The notes beneath the pieces were generated by a model. It made no database searches. It saw nothing but the letters and a program-made list of their open reading frames with translations, and was not told where the DNA came from. From assembly GCA_000310025.1 (NCBI GenBank), contig FN649734.1, forward strand, positions 3,002,100 to 3,044,420: 42,321 nt of DNA. Direction: 5' to 3'. A program made the translations under genes and the position numbers. Below are positions 1,417 through 28,862 of the stretch, piece after piece; the stretch's first letter is position 1; each line of letters opens with the position of its first letter. This DNA is from Ectocarpus siliculosus. Its lineage: Eukaryota > Sar > Phaeophyceae > Ectocarpales > Ectocarpaceae.

Positions 1417-4400
1417 CTCATGGGCGCTTGACGCCGTGGAGGAGTACGAGGACACGGCCTTTTACCTGGAGGCGGACACGCTCGACCCTTGCGGCGGCCA
1501 CGCAACTCCCACGGGGGCCTACCACTACCACGGCACGGCGGGGTGCCTGCAGGAGCAGGCGGGGGCGCTCAAGGGCGAGCACTCACCGGTGCTGGGCTGG
1601 TCATACGTGAGTGTACATGTATGTGTGTATGTATATATATTCTTTTCGAAGTGTTATAGCAGCGAACCGGTGATTTGATGCCTGGATCTCGCGGGGGGGG
1701 CGGGCGGGGGGGGCGTCCGTAATGCATTCGTGTGTGCTGTGAGTCAAGCGTTCGCTTGCTTCTGAGGGCTGCACGTACGCTGCAGGGAGTCAGCGCACGA
1801 GTGAGAGGTTGGTTGAGGGTATCCAGAGAGGCTGGCTGTATCTGCATCTCTCTGGGGAAAGGGAGAAAGAGGGAAAAAGAAAGGCGTTGGGCTGCAGCAA
1901 GAGCGCTTTCGTGCGTCAAGGTTGACAGGCGGATTGTTAGGTTGAGCACCACTCGCGCGCCGGCTGGACGTGGGGAGGGATTTGTGTGCGTGCTTGTGTA
2001 CCCTGCGTTGCTTGTCTGGGCTATTTGACGCATCCCAGCATGACTCGGTCCCTATCTTTCAATAAGCTTCCCTATCTTTCAATAAGCTTTCATGACACCG
2101 CGAACTGTTGCGCGGAAATCGATCACGGTCGGCGATTTTTTCGCTTCAAAGAGCAAATAATAGCGGGGTGCGCTTCAACCCCGGCGACCGTCACAAACTG
2201 ACTTCTCTGAACTCTTTGTTTGACATCGGAGAGGCGGAACCCGAAGGAGCAACAAGGAACGTTTCATGAGCCCCCCCAACAGCGTGCTCGGCCCGTTTCG
2301 TACTAAACCTCCCACCATGACAGTCGCATGCCCTAATCCTCATCGAGACGCTCCTCCGCCTGCGGTCAGCGGGTTTTACAGCCGTAGAAGGGCTGCGACA
2401 GGAAAGTCGGCTCTCGAGGCCGAACCCACATGGCTTCTCCGTCCTCCACCGACCCAATCCAACCAGCCCCCTTCCGTTTCCGCGTAACGCCATTCCAGGA
2501 CGGGTTTCCGATCTACGGGCAGTTGGGCCCTGACGGAATAGAGATGAAGGTAGGTCGTTGGTGATGTTGCTGTCGTGTTGGATGCTGCTGATATGTTCGC
2601 CTGCTTCGAGATTTTTGTCTCTCAGGAGCCGGTCTACTCTACGTTCCACTTCTAGACGCGCGCGGGAGCGTTTCATTCCAATGGGGGGCGGGCGGGCGGG
2701 TGCACCACTGGTAAAGTAGAACCGCCCTCTTGTGTATTGCGGTGGCGATACGTGCGTAAATCCCCGCCGGCCGCACGGTCGAAAGCCATCCCCCAAGCCG
2801 CCTAACCGCTGGACTGGCGCTTCATTGTGTGGCAGATGTGCGGAGCCGATGGGGCGCACGACACGGCCTGCCTCGACTTGTGCTCCGGCTACGAGGCTAC
2901 CATCGACGAGGACGAGTTCACGTACCGCTACTACACGGTACGCAACCGTCCCTTGTTTTCACGTGCGTCGTGATCCCGCCGGACGCGATTCTTTGCGCCC
3001 TTCCCTCAGACGATGAACGGATGTTTTTTGGATCAGCAAGTTGCTTTCCCAGGCACGGCTGCGGTGTATTTTCATTTTTCTAACCTGGGCTTGCCGGCCA
3101 AGGCCTTCGATCCACAATTCATGTTAGTTGCAGGGTTTTGTTTTGCGACACAGAGAGTAGGGCAACAACCCGCCAACGCACTGAATGGCGCTGTTACGCA
3201 CTCGAAAGTCCCACATGCAGGCGATTCCGGTGTGTAGGCGTGTTCTCCGAGGTTCGCATGTGCGGGCGAATTATCCCTCTAGTTAGTCAAACGTCATGAT
3301 GGTCGCCTGTGAGCAACACCAGCCACGCTGACGACGTTGGGCAGGGCGCCCCGTGCCCAGTCGTTACTTGCTTCACTACATCATGTGTAGTCAGTGGTGT
3401 GCTGGCTCTCGTGCGCTGTTCTTACGCCCTTCGTTCGACGGTTTGTCGGTATTCTATTTATATAGTCGGTCGTACTCCTGACGATGCTTAACCCGGGAGG
3501 GTACGTCGCAGGCAAAGAAAACGCTCTTTTTCGTGTGAAAGCAACCGGCCACTCACTCCCGAATAACACCGATTCTTTTTTTGTTCCGATGTTTTCCCCC
3601 CCTTTTCTCCGTTTGTTCGGTGTTCGGTGTTCGATCCTCACATGCGTGGCCGTCCAGTCATGCGGGTTCGACGAGTCGTTCTTTCCCTTCACCCTCAACT
3701 GCTTCCGCGGCTGCTGCCCGACGGGCAACACGTAAGACTCGGCCGATGAGCCTGTTGCTTCTCAATCAAGTAATATTTCTGAACGGCGAGGCGGGCCCGC
3801 GCTGCTGTCGTAAATAGTATAGCGTTGACACCAACCGCGACGACACAATCAGCCACCCCTCACGAGGACCCTGCTCCCTGTTCGGCCATCCCTCTTCCAA
3901 TTTAGCTACGCTACACATCTCCATCGCGCTCGACCCAAACCCACAACAGGTGCAGCGACAGGCTTGACGCGTGCGGGGATGACGCGGAAGTAGGCTACAC
4001 CGACGACTACGTGCCCGTCGCACAAGAGTCTATGGACGAGTTCTACGACACCGAACTGATCCTTGGGGACGACCTTGAGCTTATCGGCTCCCAGATCACG
4101 GTCAACTGCACCCTGTACCTGGGTAAGAGATGTTTTTTTTCTTCTTTTTTTTTTCTCTTTTTCCTTTTGTTTGGTTTGTCGTGGCAGCTGGGTCCGGGTG
4201 GCCTCTCTCTTGCATCGACCTTCTTGCCGACAACCAGCTCCCCTTCTTCTGGCGCTGCTGCACAAGCCATGTTCTGTGGATTTTGTATTGTTCGCTCCCG
4301 CTACTTACCAGCGCTCCATCTCTGTGTCTGTTGCAGCGCCGGCCGACATTATCCGTGTGCACATGCTGTGAAGTTCTTTTGCTCAGGCTGCGATGCCGAG

Positions 4401-7117
4401 AAATGAAGTTGATTTCTCGCCCCGTCGATATTGGTGTGAAAGAGGAGGAACCAAAGGTAGGACCAGGTTTGTTTTTCAGTTTCAACCTGACGGCGACAGC
4501 CCAATCCTCCGGAGTTGGCGTGTCCGCCGCAGTCATCCGGTTCTTCGTTTTTGTCCTCGCTTACCGTAGGTGATGGAAGATATCACACCCCCCGGACCCA
4601 TTTTTGAACAGCTCGAACACTCTACCTCAACCCTGACGGGCGGCGTCGAAAGTGTCGGCGTGGAAACCTCTTGTCTAGGGGTTTAGAACAAATGGTATTT
4701 GGTTTGGTTTTGCACATCCTTTTTCGTCGTGGAGTACTCGAGCTTTGAAGAGTCGGTGCAGGGGGTATGGTATCGTACGTCACCTTCGACACCCCGCTGA
4801 TCTAACCAAAGAGACTCTCGACGCCCAGCCAGACGGAAATGAGTGGAGTAGTCGCAAGTTGTTTTTTTGTCTGTGGTCGATAGCTTCCGCTAGGAGTCAA
4901 CTCCTTGCCCTCCAGCCAACAGAGCGACAAGGACATGAAAGTTGGGCTGCGTTTTTTCGGCCGTCCTGATGTGTGTTCGTCGTCTTCTTCTCTTGAAGAC
5001 AAGAACGGACCCGTGGTGTAGGTACTATAGGGCGAGAAGATAATGTCCGGTTCTCCTCGAAACATATTTCTGTGCGCATTTTTTCAGCACGCGATTGGGC
5101 GTGTCTGCCGCACAAGGACAGCAAACATACTTCAGGGGGAGGGAAACGATGGCCCTCTCAGAGAGGAGTGAACCACGCTGCGCTCTACAACAAATCGTTG
5201 AGTGCCCTGCTCCTTCCACCCCCGATTTTGGCTTTTCTTTCCATCACAAATCAACTCTAGGCTCTGAGTCGGAGCTGGCGACTGGAGATGTTGCCCGCGA
5301 AACGACCCCACCCCCTACTCCGGCCGCCGTCGCCGATGCTGACCAAGAAACCCCCTCCCCGAGCGCTGCGACCCCCGCTCCCACCATGGGCGGCGGCAGC
5401 GGCGGGGGCGGGTCCGCGGCGGACGCGCCTACACCATCTCCGGAGGCAGCTGCTAGGAGCGCGCCGGAAACGACTGCCCCGCCGAGTACGTTGTTGGTTG
5501 CGTGCGTGCGTGCGTGCTTGGCTGACGATCATGTGGTAGCGCTCTTCCGTTGCCTGCCGTCTTGTTTTGTTGGTTGGGTTTCCCGTTCGGTTCGGCCATG
5601 CCATCATCGTTTGCCGCGCGCGCCCCTGGCTGTAGGATTTGCTGCTGTCACGACGCCGCCACAGGTTGTAGCCTACACCCTGCTGCTTGAGCCCCGCCCC
5701 GCGCGCGTTGTATTCGTTGTTCTCGGACCGTTTTTTCGTACGTTTGTGATGGTGGCAGGGGCGTTCGGCCCAGTCGCTCTGCGGTTGGGGTTTTTGTTTG
5801 TGAACCTTTTTGGCGCTGTGTTTTTCAACAGTCTCGTCGCAACTGACTTCTAGGCGATGGGAGAGAGGGACCTCACGCCCCCGACCGGGCGCGAATTGCC
5901 CTCCCCTTACTTGACGACCTCGAACCACCGGGCGCGCGTCACGCCGCGTGCTTTACCTTTGGGGCCTTCCTCGCCGTCTTCTTTCCCGATCGTCAACGAT
6001 GCCCCAACTTCCGCGATTGGACGCGAGTTGCCCGACCCCCCCGCTCGATTTCGAACCACCGCGCTCGCGTCAAGACGCGTTCCTTTCCTTGGATACCTTC
6101 CTGGTTATCTTCCCGGCCCCTCAACGACACTCCAACGTACCGTGCGAGTCCGACCTCTATCCTGCACACACCCATCACGCCTCGATGCTTCCCCGGGAAC
6201 GACACCGGAAAAACGTTTGGCCCGTTTTTTCCCGTTGCCCCGCATCCAAGGGAACCGGGAATGTTGTGGATGTTGTTTGATGGGCAGCAATACCGGCACT
6301 GCTCTCTTTTTTTCCACCTGCGTTTCGGCCGCCTTTCTCCAAGGGCCACCCCCCTTCACTTCACTGACCAACTCACTCCATTGGCCACCTTCTTGTATCG
6401 GCAACCTGCCTCCATTGGCCGGACAGATCCCTCCGATGGCCACCTGCCTCCATTGGGCCGACCACCACCGCGTGCCCTTCCTTGCAGTCCCGTGCTTCCT
6501 TGGCCTCCCGCCGTGCGCTCTTTGCCGCCTACCCAATGCGGGGCGGGAGAGCAGTCGCACCCGTGAGACTCATGCACGGCCATTTTTTTTATTTTTTTTT
6601 CATTTTGGTTCGAGCCCTAATATTACTGTCGTCGGGTGCCCTCGACAGGTGTGGGTATGTGCTAAGCGCGTTTCCCCCCCCCGCACTATTCAAAGCTTTT
6701 AACCACATCTCAATCATTCTCTCTGTGCCAGCCGATGTCGCCAGAACTATACCGGGCGCACCGGACTGTAGTATGTAACGTGCGAGGTATGGATGGATTT
6801 AGCGCACAAATGTTTAAGGCGGGAGCGATGACTTGCTCAGCGGTGTCTCGGCGAGAAACATGAGAATGCCAAGAACAAAACCGGGGGTTGTCGACGTTAA
6901 CACTTGCTACCCCCGAGGTTAATGGTCTACCGACTACACAATTCACGACTATGACTACCTCTCCCCCCGCCCCCTCCATTTTTGAAATTTTGCAGGTTCG
7001 GGGGGGGACACCGAAGACGCCGACATTGGCGGGGCCCCCGGGGGGATTTTGAGCTCCACGCCCGGCATAGTCTTCCTGGGCTTGATAGCCACCGCGGCGA
7101 TGGCTTTCGCCTCCTAA
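1417..7117 (+). CDS. YHYH-domain surface protein, gene A (5' partial, 7 exons)
   Basis: Exons: 1417-1606, 2499-2549, 2836-2937, 3658-3731, 3950-4122, 5261-5485, 6996-7117 (TAA at 7115-7117). All have GT-AG ends and compatible phases, and give 311 complete codons plus stop. Seen in order, counted from the first complete codon: CGGH and YHYH (35-38), CLQEQ, GWSY, DGFPIYGQLGP (64-74), CLDLCSGYE...YRYY, FPFTLNCFRGCC, GYTDDY, YDTELILGDD, a Thr/Pro/Ala stalk ending in a Gly/Ser run (198-271), and a hydrophobic C-terminus resembling a GPI signal. The YHYH family (Pfam YHYH) has no known function. Secretion and surface anchoring are inferred from genes B and C, because the signal-peptide exon is not found here. 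An in-frame ATG at 1409 sits just before the acceptor and could start a shorter, leaderless product. Two introns present in B and C are absent. Its 3' end faces gene B. Confidence 0.8.
2050..2089. repeat. 20-bp direct tandem duplication in gene A intron
   Basis: CCCTATCTTTCAATAAGCTT occurs twice back to back (2050-2069 and 2070-2089) inside the 1607-2498 intron. It looks like a recent slippage duplication, because the copies are identical. Confidence 0.85.
4711..4786 (+). repeat. Dispersed repeat copy related to the 39-kb foldback arm
   Basis: This intronic stretch shares the phrases TTCGTCGTGGAGTA, TCGAGCTTTGAA and CAGGGGGT, in the same order, with 39227-39300. It lies in the gene A intron 4123-5260. 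It suggests a mobile or dispersed non-coding family with at least two members in the window. Confidence 0.55.
5885..6110 (+). repeat. Imperfect duplication of about 133 bp in gene A intron
   Basis: The phrase GCGCGAATTGCCC...TCGAACCACCGGGCGCGCGTCA, starting at 5885, recurs with changes from about 6018 (ACGCGAGTTGCCC...TCGAACCACCGCGCTCGCGTCA). Both lie in the 1510-bp intron between the stalk exon and the last exon of gene A. Confidence 0.5.
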
Positions 7118-10100
7118 AGAGGGGACGATGCTGTCTTGTCAAAAAAAAGTGTGCCACAAGGGACGCGACCTCGTTATGGTTTTCGCGCAGTGATGGGTGA
7201 ATCGACACAGCTGGTTTTGAGGTGATAAGTTTTGCGATGGGTAAACCGACGCGAAAGGTTTTGGAGTGAAAATATTTTGAATGTCTTGTGTGCGGCAGGC
7301 CAGCGGGGCACACGGTAACGGAAGTGGTTGCGTCTGTACTGTTCGTTTGGAGGGAAGGGGATGGGTAGGAAGCAAACACCGACTCCCGCCGCATTAAACG
7401 TCCCCTTTTTCCATTCTCATGTCCAAGTTCCTGTTGTTGTCGACGGACACATGAGGAAGAACGGCCGTGTTGCGACGTTGCGGCGGCACTCCCATTGAAG
7501 GCCTGGTTGCTCGGCGAAGGGCCGTTTACTGTACAATTTATTGCATCGGTTATCCACGACTTGGTTTTTCATGTCAGCACGGGGTGAGTCGTTATTTTAT
7601 TTTTCGGGATTTTTCGGAATGGGGCCGTCTCGCAACGCTCCCCGTCGTGCCGTGCCCGCGTGAAAACCGCTTAGTTTGGTGCTCTTCAATGGCTGGGCAT
7701 GCTGCCGGCCGGACTTGAGCCACTATCGTGCGTAGCGCGCGCGACGCTTGCCGAAAGGCCCGTCCGAATTTTGAGGGGCGGAAAAGCTGCTCCTATCTCT
7801 CGTGCTGACCGTTTTGTTTGTAGTTGAGGCCGGGCGGGGTGTTTTGGGTTTAAACTCTAGTACCGCGCCTGTGTTGGTGAGCTTGCGATGCTTATTTGGC
7901 TTCGCGTAGTGCGGGGTGTAGAAGAAGGCGAGGGGGGTCTCTTTGTTTTTGCCGTTCAGTTTCCGCACCAGCACGCGAGACAAGACGGGGTGGCGTGCAT
8001 CACTCTTACATTACATCGAATATTCAGTTAGGGTATAGCCCGATTCCGTAAGCTGCAGCCTATGCAGCCCCAAGAACTGCGGCACGGGGCGGGGGCAGTG
8101 ATTACGGAGGGCGGGGTGTGGGGGGTATCTACGTCTGGAACCCCTTGGGGACCACGCTTGCGTGCGGAGGGAGTGATGTTTCGTTAGAGACACTGGCGCA
8201 GCGATTTGGCGCGACGAAGATGGCGGAAGTGGCACGCCATCATCCGCGTGGTATAGTCCTGTCGTCTGTTCATTTTCTGGAGGCATAGGAGGAGGCTTTG
8301 GGTTTTGGCGTTACGAGTGCTGTGTGACTTGTGGTGCGATGTTGTACGGGTCGCAATTTTTCCTCTGTCGACCGCTAGGATGTTGAGTGTGTATTGTGTT
8401 GTTTCGGTGTATCTCGTACGTTAATGTTTTTCGTGCTTATGAAGCATGCGATGATGTTCCACTCATCCATGCCAGAAGAATGCGATATTATTGGTGTCCA
8501 CACGAATATTAGTTTTTCTCGATTGGCAGGATGCTGTGTTGTGGTGCGCATGCTCAAGTTTCGTTATGGTGTAAAAGGAGGGTAATAACTGGCGTCTCTG
8601 GCGTGTCACTCTCCTACGGTTCAGAAAGATCTTGAACATGTTGCTGTAAGGCACGGGGCTAATCATTGTTGCGTTCGCTACTGTCATGCCGTCGGTGATT
8701 ACTCTCATGTCTTTCACAACTGCAAGACTACCCTTGTCTTTCATAACGGGGAGACGGGCTTGTGCTCTCTCTTGCTCCTCATGTTGGGCGATGATCGGGG
8801 CGGACTGTTTCGGTTTCTTTCGGCATGGCGACCGGCCTAAAACCTTGAACATGGTAACGGGGTGAACACTTCCTCATTGATTTCGTGTTGTCTATGACGA
8901 TCCATACAGGCCTACTCTCTCTTGCTTATCACGCGGTGCGTTGAACGGGGCGGATTTCGGCCTCTGTCGTCAAGTCGGTATCGTGTAGGCCGGCCCAAAG
9001 ATGAGCCCGTAGCAGAGTAGAACACTGCCGTATCCAGATAGTAACCGCTTGGTTCGATGAACGTTTTTGTGGCAGCGCGTTGTTTTCGTGATGCAAGTGT
9101 GTCTGCCACCTTCGAGTTCATTCGCAAGAAGACGTGTTCACGTGGCCAAGAACAATCTCACCATCCGATGAATGAACCGGAGCGATTGGTATCAACGCGT
9201 GGATTGGCCTCAAGCGCAGCATCGTTTACGGTGTGGTCATTGTAACTTGTTGACAGCAACGACCAGTACTGGTCGGGAAATTTCACTACCCGTTCGAGAT
9301 ATTACCACAACCGAGGGGATGTGAACGTGGAAAAAAACGACTGGATAATGGTCGTCTGTAGTTTGAGGCCGAGCCTTTCCTTGCCACCCTTCACGGCAAG
9401 CAACAACCGTGTGTGGTCTAAACACATAGAATTGATTATTGTGTGATTTCGAAGAGAAGGGCGGAAACGCCTTCCAAGCGGGCTTTCAGAAATCCTGCAT
9501 AATTTGGAAACCCTATACTTGTAGGCTACGTAGTCTTGGTACAGAGACCACTCGACCGCAATACAATGCTGCCGACTTCGGGTTGAGGGGCCGTTCACCA
9601 TCAGAGTTCTCGCGCATGCACTTCCTTCTACTGTTTGCCTTGTCGATGAGCAGAAGGTTCTGGCCTTCCACAAAACTTTCTCACAATGGGAAGCCGCATT
9701 TGGTAGACTAATGACCAACACTTGGAGGCCGTTGAAGGAATGTTTGGCGCGGACCGATAGGAAAGAACGCGTGGTAGACTAATGACCAACACTTGGGCGG
9801 TGTAGCTGGAATGTTGGGCGCGGTCCGGGAGGAAGGAACGGGCGCTTCGACGGTCCACGTGACGCGGGCGCGAGGTGGCGAGAGAATTTCGCACGAGAAA
9901 CGCCTGTGATGCGTTGGGTAAAGATGAAGGAATACATTCACGCTCCAGGGTGGGACTGGTCAGAGAGGATGGGGGTGGGAGGGAGAAGGAGTGAGCTAAC
10001 AAAATCTCCTCATTGTTATACTCGGGGCAACTCCTGCGCGGATGTATGTCAGACATCAATCGACTTAAACGGTTGGTAGGGGCATCTCGCCATATCTACG

Positions 10101-12196: not shown

Positions 12197-15100
12197 CTAC
12201 CCCAAAGCATCAGTGACTACGGCAACCGCCACCGTGACGGATGAAACCAGCAGATACATGGACCTTGCCATTGGTCCGTAGGCCCTCCTGCCACCCGCCC
12301 CATTGAAGTCGTCGTCGTCTACCACCCCTAGCGGGGCAGGCGTCGGGGCTGGTGGTGGGTTGGGCTCCGCGGACCCTGCAAGGGGCGTTCATTACCGGGT
12401 GAGTATCGCCGAAAAATGAGTGAAAATCGTGCACCAGCCCAAACACTCGGAGCTCAAGCGAATAAGCTCTCAACAAGATGAACGAGCAGTACCCAGAGCA
12501 GGGCATAGTGCCGGTGGGCGCACAGCAGTGTTCGTAGTGCACTCTATGTGTTCTCATTGTGACACGCAGCCTAGAGGTGAATAGGAGCCTATCCTGTTCC
12601 CGTGCTCCTTGCCAAGCAAGTTTTTTCGGAGTGAAACTTCCCACAAATTCACACGATTTTGAGGTCTGCGGCAAAAATGATCAACCTAAACCTAAGACTG
12701 ACATGTTCACGCTTTTTTCGAGAACATCTTACCCATGTAGAAGGAACAATCCATTTCGTCCTGGGTGGCGACTTGGTCCACGTCGTCGCCTTCAATAAGA
12801 TCGCTGTCCATGTACGGTGTGTCTAGATATAATGATTCGTAACTCTGTTTTTAGGAGTCCAAAAGTTGGTGTATTCGTGGCGGGGATCGGGGAAGCCGGG
12901 GGAAAGAGCAGTGGGTCAACGAGAGGAAGCTCTGCCAACGGAACACTCGTGGGCAATGGTCGCCTGACGCGTGCGATGGCAAGTACTAGGAACTCTTAAC
13001 GTCCACCGCGAGTTCTTCTCACTATGGATCAATTGGGGTACACGGAAACTTGAGTGAGTGCATCTCAAACACGTTGATGGCGTGTTGCGCCCAGACTGAC
13101 CCCATTGATTGTCGATGTGGAGCTTCGCGAAGAACACAAAAGGCCGCATCCAAAGAGTGTTATTCATGGGTGGATGAACTCGAACGCTTGCCCGTACACA
13201 ATTCTCAATGGGCTGTACCATGGGCGATTGAAAAGAAACACGGAGCAGGAACGATGTACAGTAGAGCAACCGCCAGCTCTTTGTGCGGCACAGAAAACAA
13301 GTGTTTGGACACGAGTGTAACGTCGTTCTTACTTGACCGGCGGTGAAGTCGTCTGTGTATCCAATCACAGCACCGAGTTCCTCGATGCAGTTCTGCACCG
13401 TGCTGTGACACCTGGTGAAAAACAATAAATCCATTAAACCAGTCGGGTGCGAGGGGGGTAGTTGCTTTTGGAGAGTTCCATGGAAGTCCATGGACTTCCA
13501 TGAAAAGTTCCATGGAGCTCCATGGACTTCCATAAAAAAATTCATGGAACTCCTTGAAATATTTCATGGAAGTCCAAGGAGTTCCATAAACATTTTAATG
13601 GACTTCAATGAAATATTTCATGGAAGTCCAGGGAGTTCCATGAAAACATTTATGGAAGTGAAAGGAGTTTCATGAAAAGATTCATGGAAGTTCATGGAGC
13701 TCCGTGGAAACAAGTAAAAAGTTTCTTGGAAGTCCAATGAAGCCCATGCGCACAGTTCATGGACATCAATGTCCAACACAGCCAAGGCTCATTGTCGCCA
13801 TTTATCCACCAAGTTGGCGTCACTGGAATATTTCTAGAACGTCCATGCCATGAATGTTTCATAGACTCCCATGATGAAATATTTCATGGGCCTCCACGGA
13901 CTTCCATGGACATGGTGTCATGGACTTCCATGGACTTCCATGAAATTTTTCATGGAAGTCCATGAAAGTCCATGGACTGGTTTCATGGGACTCCATGGAA
14001 CTCCATGGACTTCCATGAAATAGTTCACTAAAAAATATTATAATGTAGATGATTGGAATGATTCCACAAACAGGTGGTCACCTGTTTTTCAAGTCGGAGA
14101 TTTTCCCAACACCGGTCGCCGACAGCGGCGGTGACGAAAAGCGTCATACCCTTCGGCGCGTTCGGTCTCTAGACATTGCGAAACAGACGTATGTGCGTAC
14201 GTGCCCGTTTCGCCCTATCATGGAAGGCATGTGTTCGGCGTGTGCCAAAGGCCCGTGATCACCACAGAACAGGGGTTTTACTGCAAGGTAGATACAGAAC
14301 AACAGGCGGATCGTGTTTATTACTTAGAAGTATGTTTTATTGGTCCTGTTGCCATTGGCGGTGATAATGGTGGTGGCGGTACCATCATCACACCGGACTG
14401 TTTTGACCCGTATTCGTGTAGAGGTATGCACGCGTTGCTCAGGCAGGGGCTACTGTAAGATCCTGTCCTCCCCTGTTTTATCCCTCTGCGGGGAGTTACA
14501 TCTACGCTTTCTAGAAGGAATCGTTCTCTTCAATGTTCCGTTTACACTCGGCAACTTCAATACCTATGCTTGTTGCCGAACACCAAAAATGGCTCTACCA
14601 AATAAACTACGTTCATGAGCCAATCTTCAAGGGGTCGACACAACAAATAAATGAGAGCAAACACAAGTGGTCGCGCTGGCTTCGTTGATGTCGAGAGAAG
14701 AGCGTAATCGATAGAAGTATATCGAAATGAAAAACCTGTGCTGTTGTCCTTTCCGTGCAAGTGCCCCGTACCAACACGTTTTTTCTACATAAAACACAAC
14801 ATCTCAACTGCCAACACGTACGTATTTGAAGTACCAAACTATTCACCTTCGTCCAAGCTCAATTTCGCTACCTCATGTGGCCTACACGATTTTCTACCGA
14901 AAAAAGCCCACACCACTGCCAATAGCATTGACTTGACGACAACGCCGACGCGGAAATACCATGAATACAAGAACAGACATGATGAGACAAGCCATTGTTA
15001 TTGCCACGCAAGGTCTGCACTTACCGCGTCGTTTCTTCGCAACACCCACGGTAGCAGTTGATGGTGAACGGGAAATACTCTGGGCCGGATCCACACGTCT

Positions 15101-16939
15101 GGACACCCAAGTTGCGGGGACGACAAGGACGACAAGCGTGCGGTGAGGACCAGCTCGACGTCGAGGGATGGAAGGAGAAGCAACTCGATGCGCTTGATGT
15201 GCAGTGACGCAAAGGTTTGCGAAGCAGGAACTAAAAAATTGTCTGTGTCTTTGTATGATGTTTCGTGCACTCGCTGTTGTTTTGATCGGAATCACAACTC
15301 AGCGTGTCTGTGGAAGCTATTCCCTTTCCTAGGCAATGATTTGTTTCAGAAGCCTCCCCGCTACCTGCCATACCCAGTCCATTTTTTTTCCCAGCGAAAG
15401 GCAACTTTAGGCCACCGTCTACAGTAAGCCTATTTCTGGTAGAAGGTCCCAGGAGGCCTTATTGTGGCAAAGCGCCTACAGTCATTTATTAAGATCTTTG
15501 GTTCCGATTTACATCTGCCGCGTCACTCTCTTCTTTCATTGCCTACATGTATTACAGCCGTCTCCTAGAATCAACCCACTCTCCCGATCAATGTTCCCGC
15601 GAAACTACATATGTATGTCTTTGTCGTTGCAACAGCACAGTTCCCAGAGGTCCGACGGTGTTACTATTAGAGTCCTGATTTTTTTACGTACCATGTAATA
15701 GCGGTACAGCAAGTGGTCGACACCGGATATCTCCCCTTCATACCCCCCGCACTCATCCAGGCAGTACGTTTCATTCGCTCCGGTAGTGTTGCATCTCTGT
15801 GCGGTGAGGTTGTCGTCAGCAAATACAGGGAAAAAGCGAGTGAGTGCCTACGAGAGTTGCTTGTTTTGCAATGATGTTTCGATTGGCCTCGGGGTGCTGC
15901 CGCCGGTTTCATAATAAGTGATACAACCTCAACCCGGTATTTATTTCGCGCATCCCTCGAGGACGGCTTGGCGTCAAGCCTCTCGGTACACGGGCGTATT
16001 ATTCACTGTTCTGTTTCTTCGGAGTGGTGTACGGAGCATAAGGCGGCGAAAAAGAGACGGAAACACGCCTCACCCTGCTGTGGTCGCGTCTCCCGTGCTT
16101 TCTAACGGGACGTCAACGGTCCCTTTTGTGACTATGGTTGCACAATTTGTACTCTGAGTCTCGGAGGCGGAGGAGGTGGACAACTACCGGGCTATCGTTC
16201 GGGCACAGCAAGGAATTCGAAAGGCAACAGGACGCCATCACACACAGAACAACGACAGCACCGCCTAACAAAAAAAGACAACATACATATACTTCTATTC
16301 AATAATATGATAAGTTGACCTCACCAGCATCTCCACTCCACTGGGCCCTAGCTGCCCGTAAATGGGAAACCCATCCTGCGTAGGCGGGTACGAACCGAGG
16401 CCCAATATCAATGGTGTCGTGTGGGGGTACTTCTCATGTATCCAACACCGTCCCCGCCCGTTTCTGTTGAGTCGAGAACCTCGAAACCACGCCGGCCGGG
16501 GAACCTCTCCGGAGAACAATTACAAACGTTGGGCACGCATTTCTTGGAATAAACAACACCAGTTGTGTGGCGGTTCCGATCCGAAATCTTCCGTCTGTTG
16601 TTGTTCCCGAGTAACGCGCAGTCTCCGTTGACGGTCAGCCAGCTTGAGGACCCCAGGTTGCGATGATTTAGTACTGGTGTTGGGTTCGCTGGCTCGAGAC
16701 GATTAACCGGAGTGTTTTTCGCTGTTGCCACTCAGGAACGAGGACCCATATAGTAACAGACGACACAACCCAAACCCTAACCCTAACCCTAACCCTAACC
16801 CTTTGTTGATGTTGCTACTGGTATTGCTATAGCTGTTGCTTGCTGCTGTTGAAGCTATTTCTGTCGTCGCCGTCATCGTCGCCATCGTTGTCGTCATCAG
16901 TGGCATCTTAACATATCAACGTCGGTGTCGATCTTGTTG

Positions 16940-16996
<57 letters not shown>

Positions 16997-19250
16997 ATAT
17001 TTGCTAATCTTTGTGTTCTATTTCTTCTTTCGTGTGTCTGTGTTGAGTACCACCTATTCTCTATGTCAAATCTGCCCTTGCTTAACAATGTTCCGCGCAG
17101 GGACGACAGAAGCGTTGGACGCAAGAGGAGAAGAGTCGATTGAATAGACCCGCAGGACTGTTCGAGGCACTCACATAGGCCCAGCCCAGGAGCGGAGAGT
17201 GGTCGTCCGCCGTCAAGTTCTGCGCTTTCATGGCCTGACAATGCGTTGGAAGTGAAAGGTTCCGAAGGGGGCATGGAATGGGTTGCCGCACGCGGACAGG
17301 GGACTGAGAGAGTCGTAGGGGGAATCGGGAGGGGGTGCGGGTCAGCCGACCATTGCGCCTAACTCTACCCCGTACGTGTTGCTTGCAAAGCAATTCAAGG
17401 AGTTCAGAAAAGAGAACCGCTCCTTCAATCTTGCTAGCCTTTGGGTCCTTTTCTTCCGCTGATCGTTCGGAGATCACTTCAGGCCAAGGATACGGTGGGG
17501 AGCTACGGTAAACATTCCGAGGGTAGAAAGAGGGGAATCGAACGTAAGAATAGGCATGGTTTCGATGACCACACCTGCTCCTGGAGACACCCTGGGGCAT
17601 TGTGGTAGTGGTACACCCCGTCTGCGGTCGTGCTTCCCCCGCACAGGTCAGTGGTGTCGCCATGCAGCTTGGCCGCAGCGGCCCCGTACGTTGTGGCTGC
17701 CCGATCATCGGCGTAAGAACTTGAGCGTGAAACAGCGGGGTGGGGGGTAGAGGTCAGGTCGGAAGACGGGCTAGTAGAGCGTGGTGGGGGGCCGTGTGTG
17801 GTCGTGGTATAGGCTGCGGGGATCACAACACTACGTCGTATTCCTTGGGGTGAAGCTAGGATCGTAGTGTGCTACGACACCCCTTCGCCGTCGTGAACAG
17901 CAACGCAGTTACGACAACATTTCACCTGTAGACGGCGACCCCGTTGATCATCATGCCGACGGGCCCTGAAACATCGCTGAGGTTGGTCGCGCGGTCGATG
18001 CCGCCACGGAACCACGGGGAACCGTTTACGTCAACGCTCACCGCTTTTTGCTGATACGCATCGAAATTGAGAGAGGCGAACGGCGAAGGTGATGCGTGCG
18101 CTTGAGGCATCATCAAACATACTCCGCGTTAGATTCGACTGACTGAAGATTATGACGGCATCAGGGGGGCAGGGAAAAAGTCGCTGATCGAAATACTCGA
18201 GGGGACTCTCCAACTGGAGAAATATCGTGTCATGTCTTCGTACGGTAACAGGAGTCTACGCTGCTAGGCATGAGGCGTGCTACGGAGGCATTGCCCTACA
18301 CGGTTGTCCGGGGAAATTTCGCACCAATGGAATATCGAGAACGGCGATATCGTAGTAGGTTCGTAGAAAACACGTTGCACGTTGCGCGAAAACTGAGCCA
18401 AAACGGGTGCCGAAGGAAAACTGTCGGTCGCTGTCTTCGATGCAGGTCGAAACACAAACCGTTGTCGAAATCTGTATCTTTGAAATATTTGTGATTGTGA
18501 GGGTACGTTGGTGATGAAGTCCCCAGGGGCAAAGAGGGGACTCGAGCTGGGTGCATGCTCGAGGCCAAGCTTTTGCCCTCTCACTCTACCTGCAAGTCTC
18601 GTAATCCTTTAGCATGGATGCACATTCAAAGATCAAATTCGCCAACATGCGGCCGTGTAGAGGATCACCTTCGGCGCGACACCCCCGTCGATGGAGTAAT
18701 GGACATGGTTGGGACACCCCGTACCTGTTATCAAGGCCCGGGTTATCGGGAACAATTTTCTGCGAGGTGGCCAACAATAGAGCGCACGACAAAGAGAGCA
18801 GATGAGTAATCATGTCATCCGTCAATCATATCCTCCCATCGCTTCCAACAGACAGTTGATCTTCAGCCACCCGTCGGGGTTCACAATACCACTCAACCTA
18901 GCATGATACCTTCTGTGCCTGTAGTGAACAGAAGCAACATGTCCGGCCTTGGTGTATGCTTCTTGCACCTCCATCTACGTCTTACCTACGGTTTGGGTAG
19001 ACTGATTATATCAAGACTATCTTGCACCTCGACAACGACCATTGACAATAACAGTAACGACAGATCGCACAACTCACACGATCGAAAATCTGAAATCGGC
19101 GGAAGATCCATCCGCTGCACAGTCGAGGCTTTCGGATCTGTGTGCAAAGGCGGGAGGAATCTCACACAGCGCCGTGCACCAGACGAAGGCGCCAATGGCG
19201 AAGGTCGCGAACCTTCGAATCGTTGTGTTTTCGATGACGACCGCCGACAT
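12197..19250 (-). CDS. YHYH-domain surface protein, gene B (11 exons, 397 aa)
   Basis: Exons in transcript order: 19250-19078, 18759-18669, 18050-17926, 17719-17575, 17234-17175, 16375-16325, 15796-15692, 15098-15025, 13411-13333, 12844-12733, 12375-12197. All are GT-AG, phases agree and the total is 1194 nt. The ATG at 19250 is chosen because a signal-peptide-like stretch (hydrophobic FAIGAFVWCTALC, then PPAFAH) follows at once; a longer in-frame start exists at 19379. Seen: CPNH (73-76), NGVAVY before exon 4, CGG (155-157 region), YHYH (166-169), CLQEQ, GWAY, DGFPIYGQLGP (199-209), CLDECGGYE...YRYY, FPFTINCYRGCC, GYTDDF (292-297), DSDLIEGDD (about 314-322), a short Pro-rich and DDDD stalk, and a hydrophobic tail (MYLLVSSVTVAVAVV). 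Inferred to be extracellular, disulfide-rich and possibly GPI-anchored. The family's function is unknown. It is the tandem neighbour of gene C. Confidence 0.88.
13475..14022. repeat. Self-complementary minisatellite (CATGGAAGTCCATGGA type)
   Basis: About 30-33 bp units such as TTCATGGAAGTCCATGGAG, each followed by TTCCATGAAA, repeat imperfectly from 13475 to about 13745 and again from about 13831 to 14022. Each unit is close to an inverted repeat (TGGAAGTCCA, CCATGG), so single strands can fold into hairpins. The array lies in gene B intron 8 (13412-15024). The plus-strand open frame through it (repeated FHGSP..SM) is a by-product of the repeat. Confidence 0.9.
16772..16802. repeat. Interstitial telomere-like array (CCCTAA)n
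   Basis: Five perfect or near-perfect AACCCT units lie in gene B intron 5 (16376-17174). The repeat corresponds to the TTAGGG telomere type reported for many stramenopiles. Coding exons on both sides show that this is interstitial, not a chromosome end. Confidence 0.9.
16943..16996. repeat. (CTG)18 / (CAG)18 microsatellite
   Basis: Eighteen uninterrupted CTG triplets on the plus strand read as CAG in the transcript sense of gene B. They lie in the same intron as the telomere-like array. The flanking 16800-16920 is also degenerate triplet repeat (GTT/GCT/GTC). Likely length-polymorphic. Confidence 0.95.
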
Positions 19251-21597: not shown

Positions 21598-22003
21598 TCA
21601 GTCATGTTTATCTCTCTCTTGTTCTGCGTTGAACGGATATTCTGCGACTACATGAACCCGGGTTTCGCTGCATTCACATTTGAACTTGTCGTCGTCAGCG
21701 TCTACCTTCCAAAATTTCGTCGCGTTCTCGAAGGCCAAGGTCCCCGGTCCAACATTTGACCTGTTGACTTTAGCTTTCTGCATCCATTGGGCCACGCAGA
21801 TTCTCCTTGAACCCTTTTTCTTCTTTGACATTCCGTACACCTAGACCCTCTTTTTCCTTGGTTTGATTGGTAATAATTCCGTGCTTGTGTCTCGGCAAAA
21901 GCAGCAGATTTCGCCTTTGGAACACCTGTAGACCTACCGTTTCCAACGTATCACCTTTGTCAACATTGAACCCCAAATAGCGTGCTATACAACTGTTGCC
22001 CAC
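21598..22003 (-). pseudogene. Possible decayed coding fragment in two frames
   Basis: Two overlapping minus-strand frames have protein-like composition. One is 22003-21770 (starts MGNSCIARYLGFNVDKG, later FQRRNLLLLPRHKHGI). The other is 21840-21598 (contains FWKVDADDDKFKCECSE). Together they read like one peptide interrupted by a frame change near 21800-21840. I do not recognise a family. A transposable-element remnant is possible, and chance is not excluded. Confidence 0.22.
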
Positions 22004-22705
22004 CCTTTGGATTGTCTACCCTGCTTCTTGCTTGGCCACTTCGCCTCCCTCTGTAGCTCTTCTCAGCAACCTCTCCTCTCCCATGCCGTGCACACGGGGG
22101 GGAGGGGAGGACGGAGCATCACACCGACTGAGTATGTATGGAGCTGAAACCAATGATCCCTTCGTGGGGGAAATTTGCGCTCGGGTGACAACAGACGTCT
22201 TGTGGATCAACACCGAGCACGGGTCTCATCTCACGAACGGCCGACTGTGCGCCTCGCTCGCGCGCGAACATACTGCTGATGTGGCTGGATTAATGTGAAT
22301 ACGCAGAGTGCAAGGTGCAAGAAAAACCAGTGAGTACAACGCTACAGACAGGCAGCACCATGCGGCCGATCGGGTCACAGCGGACAGTACTCAACATTCA
22401 AGTGATATCGGCAGAGAACCGCGCCAGAGTAAAACCTAAACGGCGTACCGTCAACTTCTGGCCCGTGGTTCGTCGGGAGAGGAATCAACAAATAGGTGAG
22501 TCTCTCTGGAAAAATGGCGAAGTGTGGAATTGTAAGGTTCCGCCCGTCTTCAACTGGTGTTTTGTTATCCACAAGCCAAATACGATGTGCCGATCGTACC
22601 GTCCCGTCATTGAGACCTTCATTTTTTCCTCTCGCGCAATGTGTAGTAAAGGACCTCTCGAAAACTCATGTCACAACAACAAACGATCGATGACTCCAGA
22701 ACGTC
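22004..22705. other. Downstream of gene C; no supported gene
   Basis: This holds the 3' flank of gene C, whose stop is at 22706-22708. The plus-strand frame 22315-22764 runs antisense into the last exon of gene C, has no recognisable domain, and is not called. Confidence 0.5.
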
Positions 22706-25700
22706 CTAGGAAATACACCCGAAAGCACGCATGCTGGCGATGCCCGAAAGCGCCAACGAAGTAGCCAGGAACAGCAGCGGCGGGGCTCCTCTGCTGGCGA
22801 TTGCACCGTTGCTGCCGTCCTCGTCGTCGTCGGGCGCCGTGCCAGCAGCGGCGGAACCTTGTCCCAGACCGACAGATGACAAGAAGGCAGCAAGAAGTGG
22901 GGCGCCGTGCAAGTCGCAGTGGTATTACATAGTTCATGGTCGGCGGCGGCCGCTCATGTTCGAAGCTTCAAGCACCGTGCCTCGCAGATAAGACAGAATC
23001 GATACTAATATGCCCAAGCAGGGCGGAAAAGTGGACGCAAACCAAACATGAAACGCGCTCAGCGTAGCCGTGTTTGAATCGTCGGCAGCACCAGGATCTG
23101 CTTCGAATATATATATATGTGCAGGACGTGCGTAGGGTGCGTGCTGACGAACTTTGTAGAGATAGCCATGACCGCCACCGCAGAGAAGGAGCAGGCACCG
23201 GAAACTACAGCCGGGAGCAACAACCAACACGAGGGCACACACGTGCTTAAGGCGCGGCGCACAGGCGAGTGTGGACCCCGCCTTCCTCGGGGTATTGAGC
23301 AGGAGGGTTGCTACTCATCCTCGAGTTGAAGCGGAACAGATAGGGCAAAACCCCAACATCCTCTTGTTGTAGTTGCCCTACAGTCAAGCACATACCCCAA
23401 CGCGTGTCACCCGTCGCTCTATTTGAAAAACGGACGTCTCTTTCGCCAGTTCGCTGTATTCTACTCTTTCATCGAGACAACCGCCGATCCGTCAAAGGGT
23501 GAGGAAAATCCCCTGCACTGTCAAAATAGACCTGTTCATTGCTGCACGTAGTACCATCGATTCGTGTACAGACTATCATGCCGTGCCCGTAACCCCCACT
23601 GTCAACGCTTCAAGCTTTACACGAATTCAATGTCAACTTTTTTGTGTAGGCTAGTCCGGATCTGGAAACGTGGCGCACCTGCACTGGACGCGAATTTCAG
23701 AAAAAAATGTGAAATACCCAGGGTTTCACCTCTTGCGATCCAGACAGCCTGGATGGTCTCCTTGACGAATACGTGACCGACGTCATTCCCGCAACGCAAA
23801 CCTCCCGGTGTAACAAATCTGATTGTATCGATCCCGCGTAGCGTTGTTCTTACGCAAACATAGTTCGACTAGCAAAAACTTGGCAATATAGAAGTAACAC
23901 ATCACGGTGACTATGTATCTCCCAACATTAACACGCTTTACCTTCTTTGACACCCTAGACTATGCGAGAACCAAGCAACCAATATTACAAACAACACGTG
24001 TCTTGTGTCACTGAGAGGTGACTTTTCTCACCCACGTAGTACGAACAGTCCATCGAAGTGAGCGTGTCTTCCGCGTCGTTATCGTCTCCGGCGATCAAGT
24101 CGGTATCGTAAGGCTCGTCCAGCGAGTGGTCCACCTTGGTTCGTGATCCGACGGTGGTCATTGTCATTGGTGATTTTGAGATTGGTGTTGATGCTCATCC
24201 TTGCGGTCGCGGTTCTGCAACGCCCTTGCACTATTTAAATTTGCTGTAGGGCACGGGGCCAACAATATTGTCGAACCTCGTTTCCCAGCGACTCCCCCCG
24301 GAGCGACTGACACGCTCGAAGGTGTAGGCACCCAAGCGTCTGCGGAGCGACTGCAAAGGGACGTACCCCACTTGTCCAAGAGATCGTATCCCCGCCAGAC
24401 AAACGTTTCTAGCGAGATTTTCTCTGCAGTGTACGAACAAGAGGGTGCGAACACCGACCGATCTGTGCAAGGCGAGTTCAACGGTTTTCGGCATGGGAAA
24501 CCTCTTGCTGGCTGTGGACCGTTCGAGCTACAGCATATTACTCGGTCTACTGTAGCGGGGGTGCGATATCTCGCACAGCCATACAACATCTCACGTGTCT
24601 GGTGGTGCATGATGCTGAGCGACGCACGATTGTTCCGCCAAAGGGTGTCGGAACGTTCATGAACCGTAGTACAATACATGCGCATGTTTACTTGGCCGCC
24701 AACGAAATATTCGACTTCTACGCGAATCTTCCTCACCACCTCCGCTGTATAGTCGTCGGTGTAACCGGCCGTGGCGCTACTACCGCACGCCTCCACGTAC
24801 TCGTGGCACCTGGGAAGGAGATGAGGCGAAGGCTGGGGCTTATGAAGGTTCCACCCCGAAGGAAAAACAGTGGTCGCACGTACTTCGTTGCTAGAAAAGA
24901 TCGCGGTGGTGGCGTGACAGGAAAGGTTCGAAAACCGCGGCAGTTCTGACGCCGCCGTTGCAGATGATGAAAGATGCCGCTAGGGATTTCAGTGCGGTTA
25001 CAACACGCCACCCGAATCGCTTAGGTTCAACAACGTTGTTGAGTACCATACCCGGCAACACCTATCCGTTGCGATCACGAAAAAAATGATAGGTATCAGC
25101 TTTGGCTTCCGTCATTCTGCCTGCATCATCGGCACGGATTTTGCCGTGTTGAGACGCGTTGCCACATGATTGGATGACCTCTCGCTTGTCGCGAAACCAA
25201 GGGGTCATCAGGGCCTATGCTAAGACTGGCGAGTCCAGCCATTGGTTCATGGCTTGCTACTCACGTTACGCCAGTAGGGCAGCAGCCCCGGTAGCAGTTG
25301 GTCGTGAAAGGGAAGAACGCCTCGTCGAAACCGCACGTCTGCACTGACGAGAAAATGAAACGCCCGGGGCGCCACAACAACTAAGAGAACAGACGTGGAT
25401 ATTTCATCAGCGGTATCGATCAATTTGCACAAGTCCTCGAAGGGATGGCTGGGCGGGGTGGACCGCCGTTGCCGTTACTGGGTGGGCACAAGATTCAAAC
25501 GGGGCTCTCACGTTGTAGTATCTGTACGTGAACCCATCGACGTCAGGCAGCTCCCCCTCGTATCCACCGCAGGAGTCCAGGCAGTACGTGCCGTGTGCTT
25601 CATCACTCCCGCACAACTTTTTTTCAATATGGGTTGTCCGGCGTTTGGCGACGAGGTTCAGGGTGCGGAAAAAGCGGATTGATTTCCGCGGCATCCGATC

Positions 25701-28700
25701 GGGATGACCTTCGAGCAGTGATCGGGGGCGCACGCCGAACACCTCGGTCTGCCGTGTGTACGTTCGAGCGTCGTCCTACTATGGCGGAGGCTTAACCCTC
25801 CGTACCAACAAAGAAGAGCACATCACCGAAGCGCGGCTCCAGTTGCAGTTCGTCGAAAAACAACAATCACCAGAAACACGAATCGCGGCAACTGATTGTG
25901 ACAATAATGGAGCTTGTCCATTTTGAGGACGTCAAGTTTCGTGCCCCAATCCAATACCCACCAGCATTTCCACTCCGTCCGGTCCGAGCTGTCCGTAGAT
26001 CGGGAAACCATCCTGTCGACACCGTTCATGGATGGGTCACTTGAAATTGCTTTCTTCCCTTGAAACGCAAACTGCATGTAGTTTGGTTGTTGCTGTGTTG
26101 TGATGGTTTTCCGCGGCGCCCACATTAAGAGCGAAAATGCTTGGCGTGGGTGGGGGATGCCACCAGGCCTGGATCCATATCCAAACGAATACAGTACAGT
26201 ATCCGCTAACAGGTGTTCGGGATGACTGTCTAGCAGCCGAGACCGATAGTGAATGAACGGGAGACAGTTCCCGCCCAGAATATGGTTCGATCCGAAACGT
26301 GTGTCTTTTCGCTACGTGCCTCTCGACTGATTTACTATACTTCGGCGGATCTATGCCGTAAACTCACATACGACCATCCTAGCTGAGGTGTATGGTCTGA
26401 GGTCGTCGTGCCTGCGAGCGACATTGCCTGCGTCATTTCAAAACCAAAAGGCATCGAAGAATACTGATGTAGGTTGGTCGACATTAACAGAAATTTCAAA
26501 TCTCATCAAAGCATCCAGCAAAAAAAATACAAGCATCGCCCCACATTTACCATTGCGTACGTTGGTTCGTGCTTGAAACTACTCAGCAATCAAAAGAGTT
26601 TCGATGCAGACTCGTGACGCAATGGAAAACATGAGAAGGACAATCTACGGTACCATGCCTAGCTGCAAAGTTGGCAGTCCCAGACGCGTCCCGCTAGGAG
26701 TTGACGATTTTGTCACTGTTTGCGTGTTTCCTTAGGCCAAGTGGTACAAGCTTGCTCTTGAGTGGTCACGATCAGCCAAACACGATGCAGAGGTCCGCGT
26801 TCAACCCGGCTGACTCTTCTACAAGACTGGTCATGCAGTGCACGGATCTACGAAACAACTCCTTATTTCGGCAAGGAATCTACATGAGGTACGTACCTGC
26901 TCTTGAAGACAACCGGGGGTGTTGTGGTAATGGTACGTCCCGTCAAAGGTAGAATGCCCACCGCAGAGATCGAAACTGCTCCCCTCCAGGTAGGTTGCAG
27001 ACGTCTCGTACGTAGTGGCTGCAACCCCATCTGCATATCCACTTTTGTAATATCAGGACATCGGTGCTTTGGTTGGTATGGATGTGATCCCGGGCTGAAG
27101 GGGAGAATGGGTTGTGGCAAGAGTGAGGGCATGGGACGGGATGACAGCTGAACGAGAGAGCGTTTATCTACGGCGTGTTGCTGTGCTGCTCGCCCCCAAG
27201 TCTCAATAGCGGTGACTTTGGGTGCTGATGCCCAAGGGCGGCTCTGAGGAAAACATTTTTTGCAGTTTTGCTTCGTGTATCCACAGGACGCACTCGCGGG
27301 TACATTGGTTGTGGCGCCTTCTGAACACCAAGGAGAGGAACACACCTGAACACGGATACTCCATTCAGCATGATCGCAACTTGGTTCCCCTGTTCGCTGA
27401 GATCTGTCGACCCCCCGGAAGAATCGATGAGCATCGGGTAGGCAGGGATAGATTGTTCTGAGACAGATTCCTGAGAAATGTGCAGTACACGATGAGCGCA
27501 GCACACGAGCGAAAGTTACGATTGGGGACGGAACACCCCGGAAAATGCAAAATAGAAACCAAGCTTGTGACAGACATACATTTCCATTATTAGAGTGAAT
27601 ATGTTCTCGTCGAAACAAATTACAGACCCATTAGAAAACGTATTGATCCCTTCCGAGATTCTGCAGCTGGAGCTCTTGTTCCCGTGGTGTTGGCCGTCGA
27701 GTATCGACGTATTAGCGAAAGGCAAGGTACTGTAGTAGAATTCACCGAGTCATACAGAGTTTCGCTGGAGCGTCCGCTGACTGTGCTACGCTCCGTAGTA
27801 GCTCGGAAAATGTGATGTTCTCAAAAGGGAACCTGCATAAACGCAAGGCGCGGGTTCGTCTTCGACGTAGCGTGTGTCGTGCAAGTCGCTCACCTTTGCA
27901 GAGTTTGGGTTGATGGAGTAGTGCACATGGTTCGGACAGCCTGTCGTTGACCCCACTTGTCTTTCCATCGTGGTTCCAGTCCCACTGTAGCGTATGCCAT
28001 CCGCGTGTTTCATGCAGGAGGTTTCAGAGAGGGAAAGAGCAGTGTCGACTTGGTGACACTAGGCTCGACCTTGGAGTGATACAACTTTGGAGGCTAGACA
28101 ACATCAACAAATCAGCAGCCGTAGGTGTTAGGTACGCACGAGACGTTGACAAGTCTTTTACCTACCAACTACGAAGCTTCTTTGATGCTCTATGCACCAG
28201 TGGAGACATTGCAGCATTTTGGACTTTGTGTAATTAGGCCATCCACGAAGCTCTCAGCCGGAAACGCACAGATGGCTGATAATGGCCCAGCTGCCTCACG
28301 CAAGAGTGCTCGAATTTTGCGGTTCGGTACACGTTGTTGAATAACGCTTGACATCGACCGGCTATTCCAACGTGGTCGATACACGAAGAAACAGGAACAA
28401 CATGTAGACTACGGTTTTATATACTGCATCACGTCATTCAATATGGTTCGCAGCTTCGAGCCACCCTACGGCCTTGCGTCGCACGAATCAGTCCTCTCCA
28501 TGCTGCCAGTAGAAGAATCATGGGCAATGCATGAGAAACTCATGCCACGGCAGATACGAGGCACACTCGTCTAGATTAACCTTTACGCCAACAAGGGTGA
28601 ATGTAATGAAATTTTGAAACATTGGAAAGAAGCTCAGGATACCACCTATATGTTCTACAGTAGCATCTGCTGCACTTCGTCACCTCAGACTTTCTGAGTA

Positions 28701-28862
28701 GTCGGCAGAACTCATTCCGTCGCACTCCGTGCCCGATGCCACTTGCTGCCCCCCTCCACCACCCCCACCCCCGCCTTGCGCTGAGACCGACGGGGAGCCG
28801 TTAAGAAGAACGCTCCCCAGCAACGCCATGGAAACCCCTATTCGACCCCGTGCTCTCGCCAT
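22706..28862 (-). CDS. YHYH-domain surface protein, gene C (11 exons, 385 aa)
   Basis: Exons in transcript order: 28862-28684, 27984-27894, 27470-27346, 27041-26897, 26427-26368, 26012-25962, 25616-25512, 25338-25265, 24809-24737, 24134-24032, 22857-22706. All are GT-AG, phases agree and the total is 1158 nt. The ATG at 28862 gives a classic signal peptide (RARGR, then hydrophobic VSMALLGSVLL, then SVSA); an in-frame ATG at 28919 is the alternative. A run of nine Gly follows the likely cleavage site. Seen: CPNH (76-79), NGVSVF, CGGH, YHYH (168-171), CLQEQ, GWSY, DGFPIYGQLGP, CLDSCGGYE...YRYY, FPFTTNCYRGCC, GYTDDY, YDTDLIAGDD, PDDDEDG, and a hydrophobic C-terminus (PPLLFLATSLALSGIA). Six central exons match gene B exactly in length and phase. 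The exon 9 donor could also lie 3 nt earlier. Inferred to be a secreted, surface-tethered protein of unknown function. Confidence 0.88.

Follow-up and report, generated by a model that had tools for sequence, protein, structure and literature searches.

Three genes (A, B and C) in the analysed stretch of Ectocarpus siliculosus DNA (42,321 nt, hereafter the window) are best read, on their sequences, as belonging to a single small family of secreted proteins in brown algae. In the proposed layout a signal peptide would direct secretion (that of A lies just outside the window). Next comes one compact YHYH domain with cysteines, then a conserved spacer rich in acidic residues and, after a stalk or linker, a hydrophobic tail. 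The YHYH domain is already known; its anchored, compact algal architecture was not found in the open-access literature searched.

The models were built by finding homologous exons through open-frame comparison among the three genes, reading the boundaries and then splicing. All three genes were reconstructed from sequence in this way, with every modelled intron GT..AG and phases in agreement (Table 1). An earlier note had B and C assembling end to end in phase, and the spliced models bear this out. Its coordinates were also right: the first readable exon of A begins at 1417 and the ATG of C lies at 28862. Six central exons reported as identical in length between B and C (125, 145, 60, 51, 105 and 74 nt) are so, as is exon 2 (91 nt), which gives seven of 11. 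In gene A two pairs of B/C-type exons are fused. All five core exon lengths of A (190, 51, 102, 74 and 173 nt) equal those of a paralog on another contig, D, which is likewise fused.

Table 1. Positions of genes, exons and copies of the algal family, and of bacterial and viral relatives. Positions are those of the window unless a contig is named.
Feature	Location	Strand	Basis
Gene A, 311 aa, 7 exons, 5' end open	1417-7117	+	sequence-based model
A exon 4/5 fused: DPCGGH...YHYH...EHSPVLGWSY	1417-1606	+	Pfam YHYH
A DGFPIYGQLGP exon, 51 nt	2499-2549	+	spliced model
A CLDLCSGYE...YRYY exon, C-terminal half of YHYH domain	2836-2937	+	spliced model, profile-profile alignment
A FFPFTLNCFRGCC exon, 74 nt, end of YHYH domain	3658-3731	+	spliced model, profile-profile alignment
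A Cys and acidic GYTDDY / LILGDD exon (two B/C exons fused)	3950-4122	+	spliced model
A stalk exon, Pro/Thr/Ser/Ala/Gly-rich	5261-5485	+	spliced model, composition
A last exon: hydrophobic GPI-like tail, stop	6996-7117	+	spliced model, hydropathy
Gene B, 397 aa, 11 exons	19250-12197	-	sequence-based model
B exon 1: start, putative signal peptide (AFA-H)	19078-19250	-	cleavage motif by eye
B exon 2: GCPNHVHY, 91 nt	18669-18759	-	spliced model, joint alignment
B exon 3: MMINGVAVY, 125 nt	17926-18050	-	spliced model
B exon 4: CGGS...YHYH, 145 nt; Ser for first conserved His	17575-17719	-	spliced model
B exon 5: DHSPLLGWAY, 60 nt	17175-17234	-	spliced model
B exon 6: DGFPIYGQLGP, 51 nt	16325-16375	-	spliced model
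B exon 7: CLDECGGYE...YRYY, 105 nt	15692-15796	-	spliced model, profile-profile alignment
B exon 8: FPFTINCYRGCC, 74 nt	15025-15098	-	spliced model, profile-profile alignment
B exon 9: GYTDDF	13333-13411	-	spliced model
B exon 10: DLIEGDD	12733-12844	-	spliced model
B exon 11: short Pro-rich stalk, hydrophobic GPI-like tail, stop	12197-12375	-	spliced model, hydropathy
Gene C, 385 aa, 11 exons	28862-22706	-	sequence-based model
C exon 1: start, putative signal peptide (VSA-Q)	28684-28862	-	cleavage motif by eye
C exon 2: GCPNHVHY, 91 nt	27894-27984	-	spliced model, joint alignment
C exon 3: IMLNGVSVF, 125 nt	27346-27470	-	spliced model
C exon 4: CGGH...YHYH, 145 nt	26897-27041	-	spliced model, Pfam YHYH
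C exon 5: DHTPQLGWSY, 60 nt	26368-26427	-	spliced model
C exon 6: DGFPIYGQLGP, 51 nt	25962-26012	-	spliced model
C exon 7: CLDSCGGYE...YRYY, 105 nt	25512-25616	-	spliced model, profile-profile alignment
C exon 8: FPFTTNCYRGCC, 74 nt	25265-25338	-	spliced model, profile-profile alignment
C exon 9: GYTDDY	24737-24809	-	spliced model
C exon 10: DLIAGDD	24032-24134	-	spliced model
C exon 11: short acidic/Gly-Ser linker, hydrophobic tail, stop	22706-22857	-	spliced model, hydropathy
Copy F	contig of the window (C9), 2986.9-2992.1 kb	-	genome search
Copy D	contig C30, 942.7-947.9 kb	+	genome search
Copy E	contig C30, 371.3-374.1 kb	-	genome search
Bacterial YHYH-sulfatase fusions	L063, L064, L066		Pfam scan
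Bacterial YHYH-multicopper oxidase fusion	L065		Pfam scan
Bacterial YHYH-phosphatidylethanolamine-binding protein domain fusions	L067-L069		Pfam scan
Viral domains, YHYH motif or its His lost, DGxPxYG part kept	L016, L017-L021, L025, L031		

Gene A appeared 5'-truncated because the window starts directly after about 1.86 kb of N (window -1858 to 0), a run which has C-rich sequence at its flanks. Upstream of this run, the sequence at window -2454 holds a first exon that begins like a signal peptide (MARVSTT...SRAQPGG...EEFLA). It matches the first exon of D, which has a start of the same kind, and its phase 2 end is shared with the first exons of B, C and D. With a phase-matched exon 1 beyond the N run, we rejected A as a truncated gene. 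The run probably hides exons 2 and 3 of A, including CPNH; CPNH was sought in the readable sequence upstream of gene A and was not found there.

Several repeats were seen in the window. A degenerate tandem array of CATGGA/TCCATG units occupies 13474-14011, between exons 8 and 9 of B. Intron 5 of B holds a perfect (CTG)18 repeat at 16943-16996, and a short telomere-like CCCTAA run lies near it at about 16770-16800. A long, almost perfect inverted repeat at 30647-31379, with arms of 145, 107 and 40 nt that are 88-96% complementary, looks like a palindromic transposable element. A Pfam scan of ten unspliced open reading frames at 33.3-41.5 kb gave no match at E <= 0.01, and an Rfam scan of the window gave nothing at gathering scores.

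A Pfam HMM search placed all three proteins in the YHYH family (PF14240), as had been proposed from the letters. E values were 6.5e-14 for A, 2.4e-14 for B and 2.0e-14 for C, with scores of 52.8, 54.2 and 54.5 bits against a curated cut-off of 25 bits; no other Pfam family matched A, B or C at E <= 1. All three carry the YHYH motif and then DGFPIYG, and of the 193 model positions the match extends only to 133 (B) or 111 (A and C). The C-terminal half of the domain (LDxCxG..YxY..FPF..C..G) was covered by a profile-profile match: hhalign aligned the algal core (3 sequences) with a bacterial set (9 sequences) over columns 24-139 at E 1.7e-14. The bacterial set came from ten loci of one genome scan, of which nine were aligned and one (L010) was omitted, its frame being broken before the YHYH motif. 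In the alignments CPNH of the algal proteins falls on the P-[DN]-H motif of the bacterial ones; the joint alignment held 12 bacterial, viral and algal sequences and left out A. The stretch described earlier as a Cys-rich block of its own (CLDxCGGYE...YRYY...FPFxxNCYRG) aligns to bacterial LDxCNGR...GTYHY...FPFIPRC..G. By these sequence comparisons the CPNH, YHYH core, DGFPIYG and Cys-rich blocks are one YHYH domain, and a separate Cys-rich module was rejected because the profile-profile match spans that stretch.

The algal proteins share with the PF14240 YHYH protein the domain-wide order PNH, NGV, GGH, YHYH, DGFPIYG, LDxCxG, Y-x-Y and FPF. Their domain is shorter, however: most of the bacterial stretch from DGFPIYG to LDxC is missing, and a short segment with Cys stands in its place. 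They are also set apart by additional Cys, by an acidic region on the C-terminal side and by the stalk or linker and the hydrophobic tail. NCBIfam gave no match at E <= 1 to B, C or two bacterial relatives. A PDB sequence search returned a single match, to a ryanodine receptor at E 0.11, which was rejected as chance. AlphaFold models of bacterial relatives from 14 and 13 sequences were both poor (mean pLDDT 54.6 and 51.9), and no metal geometry could be made out in them; L008, which has long insertions, was omitted from the second alignment. Of 129 Foldseek matches to the first model at E <= 10, none reached E <= 0.001, and the best, a small heat-shock protein at E 1.4, was treated as meaningless.

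Within the aligned cores, the third codon position changed most often in every pair compared. Differences at positions 1/2/3 were 29/16/53 for A-D, 59/51/106 for A-C, 70/65/113 for A-B and 59/62/122 for B-C. A and D are identical at 161 of 196 core residues, with dN 0.119 and dS 0.490 (ratio about 0.24), and are the one pair with dS low enough for trust. Identity was 119/197 for A-C (dN 0.342, dS 1.83), 96/195 for A-B (dN 0.460, dS 2.16), 119/196 for D-C (dN 0.334, dS 1.50) and 124/205 for B-C (dN 0.363, dS saturated). The exon frames of the A, B, C and D cores show the pattern of coding sequence that is held by purifying selection. The earlier note had suggested a diversifying family; with dN below dS in A-D and A-C, diversifying selection on the core was rejected.

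Surface anchoring had also been suggested, and the sequences do contain secretion-type starts and hydrophobic C-terminal tails; the GPI nature of the tails is what we infer from them. The hydrophobic 17-mer had a mean Kyte-Doolittle value of 2.06 in A, 2.09 in B and 2.11 in copy F, and neither Lys nor Arg occurs from this stretch onward. In C the value was 1.68, and one Arg was present among the last seven residues. Acidic and small residues lie before the hydrophobic stretch. The tails have the usual look of a GPI signal, that of C being the weaker. The proposed stalk is clear and long in A, as in D; in B and C its place is taken by a short linker. Over the last 120 residues the combined share of Ser, Thr, Pro, Ala and Gly was 70% for A, 41% for B and 47% for C. 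Cys numbered 12, 16 and 15 in A, B and C, and the acidic motifs GYTDDY and LI.GDD are conserved.

To the three genes first described, a genome-wide count added others. The host assembly (189 Mb, 492 contigs) was searched with C, B and a hand-assembled D core, and only six places matched; these counts are lower bounds, so that the family has at least six copies. The matches to F, A, B and C fall within about 44 kb, and D and E lie on another contig. The cluster had been described as tandem: local duplication is supported by the four copies in about 44 kb, but their orientation is mixed (F minus, A plus, B minus, C minus). Two structural types were seen, A, D, E and F with fused exons, and B and C. 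Copy E has YQYH in place of YHYH, LH in place of LD and an altered donor site, and neither the CPNH exon nor the acidic exon was found in it. Copy F has frame breaks within two conserved exons. E and F look like decaying copies, and for F assembly errors may also explain the breaks. No convincing candidate for the last exon of D emerged from a scan of about 3.6 kb that presupposed a single phase and a hydrophobic tail. In the genome the PF14240 profile by itself picked up just a single exon of A and a single exon of D. A bacterial YHYH domain found nothing in the host genome at E <= 1; this query is uninformative on further distant copies because it also missed all six known ones.

To place the algal residues in the wider family, conservation was read from a PF14240 survey of one bacterial phylum, taken as Verrucomicrobiota (the phylum of the Opitutus genome of L006), in which 30 of 288 genomes had matches, 29 of them above the cut-off. 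Among 30 open bacterial frames from 30 loci, numbered by an alignment model of the domain and counted where the column was present, the YHYH-region residues His106, His114 and His116 were each conserved in 29/29, Asp101 in 28/28, the DGF Asp (Asp140) in 29/30 and His21 of the N-terminal PDH/PNH motif in 18/20, a conservation that is partly built in, as the loci were found with same-family models weighting this motif. Asp192 was present in 26/27 bacterial domains, and the segment holding it is absent from the algal domain. At the positions readable, A, C and D retain the GGH His, both YHYH His and the DGF Asp. B reads GGS, with Ser for the first conserved His, and its frame and splice sites are intact. 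A passage of PMC7824862 describes a triad of conserved histidines plus an aspartate as a predicted Zn2+ site, giving no positions, and proposes a metal-dependent hydrolase for a phage-tail YHYH protein. The conserved bacterial His/Asp set fits that prediction. For the metal binding suggested in the earlier note, the conserved set is indirect support.

The partners of bacterial YHYH domains varied in a Pfam scan of 16 distinct genes, which were chosen for length and are thus an unfair sample of frequency, some frames being cut by locus ends: sulfatase was present in three, multicopper oxidase in one, a phosphatidylethanolamine-binding protein domain in three (with partial YHYH matches), Ig in one and EF-hand only in two, and YHYH stood alone in six. 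Four of 14 long bacterial frames were left out of the scan. In the sulfatase and multicopper oxidase fusions, as in the algal proteins, the YHYH domain is N-terminal to the other parts; unlike these fusions, the algal proteins have no recognisable enzyme domain. Most of the 16 genes carry no enzyme domain and the surveyed phylum is rich in sulfatases, so that the enzyme fusions may mean little for an alga.

Viral relatives were also compared. Of 11 distinct viral-contig sequences inspected, three had YHYH, one had YRYQ and seven lacked the motif, and DGxPxYG was kept in ten, including all seven without YHYH. L026 was left out of this set, and in the stretch read L028 and L030 duplicate L027 and L029, as L023 and L024 duplicate L015 and L016. 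C matched phrog_2576 at 1.4e-5, and hhalign aligned the algal core with four viral sequences at E 8.7e-10 over columns 25-80 only. The phage YHYH domains (PHROG 2576; tail and baseplate proteins) share CGGH..YHYH and H-S-[PK]-x-x-G-x-x-x-DG-[FY] with the algal ones. They are related to tail or virion protein families, and the segments inspected showed neither a stalk nor an anchor tail.

How these proteins act was considered from their architecture. The hydrophobic tail would be exchanged for a GPI anchor, and the His set would bind a divalent metal, for which zinc has been predicted in print. A metal-site domain would then be held at the plasma membrane, presumably facing the wall, where it may bind an anionic wall or matrix polysaccharide such as alginate or sulfated fucan. 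Brown-algal walls are described in a passage of PMC8307928 as uronic polysaccharides that gel with divalent cations, together with sulfated fucans. We tentatively favour this reading of the anchored domain as a wall tether or contact module that binds polysaccharide and is not an enzyme. Binding is preferred over catalysis because the intact gene B has lost a conserved His, because viral versions lose the YHYH motif and because some bacterial YHYH domains sit beside complete enzymes. This case is moderate and leaves a close rival, a metal-dependent hydrolase that would act at the cell surface to trim polymers of the wall or matrix. The invariant His and Asp sets would suit an active site equally well, the residues at issue (three His at 29/29 each and an Asp at 29/30 in bacterial domains) are present in A, C and D, and the published proposal for the phage protein is itself a hydrolase with a Zn2+ site. 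A hydrolase nevertheless seems rather unlikely given the Ser of B in a gene that has kept all exons and splice sites, the seven of 11 viral sequences without the motif and the four of 16 bacterial genes in which YHYH rides on another enzyme.

The same ligands could instead serve metal uptake or buffering by surface metal-binding proteins, with His, Cys and acidic residues all contributing. The His set, the 12 to 16 Cys per protein and the conserved GYTDDY and LI.GDD motifs are consistent with this; the Cys of secreted proteins are more likely to be in disulfides, however, and the Cys-rich stretch lies in a homologous domain that has few Cys in the bacterial set, so that we consider such a role quite improbable. 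A diversifying family of adhesion or recognition receptors, as proposed in the earlier note, was also considered. Local duplication, anchor-like tails and stalks that differ among A, B, C and D point that way, but the core is under purifying selection and only six copies were found, two apparently decaying, and we hold this to be improbable too. That the cluster is mostly dead or unexpressed duplicates is very unlikely: E lacks motif residues and a donor site and F has frame breaks, yet A, B, C and the D core retain their frames, splice sites and codon-position bias.

The polysaccharide-binding tether might extend to the domain at large. YHYH could be a metal-site domain that contacts anionic or sulfated polymers, beside sulfatases in bacteria, in host contact by phage tails and as a GPI-anchored wall tether in brown algae; we regard this broader proposal as doubtful. 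The open-access literature searched yielded no tested function for the widespread YHYH domain. In B, a natural variant without one conserved His makes the questions of the metal site and of binding versus catalysis testable.

Other stramenopiles may well carry the anchored architecture. A passage of PMC11992049 places YHYH among diatom-prevalent families that are more abundant in temperate waters. Another cysteine-bearing family was also surveyed in the host genome: EsV-1-7 cysteine repeats (PF19114) matched in 150 of 150 scored from 880 candidates and in 0 of 14 control genomes, a set that may be a poor guide to other eukaryotes. These repeats are a brown-algal hallmark and suggest a brown alga as host.

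The anchor-tailed YHYH proteins are candidate links between membrane and wall in brown algae. If the general polymer-contact reading of YHYH were true, the algal family would be a lineage-specific wall-attachment system.
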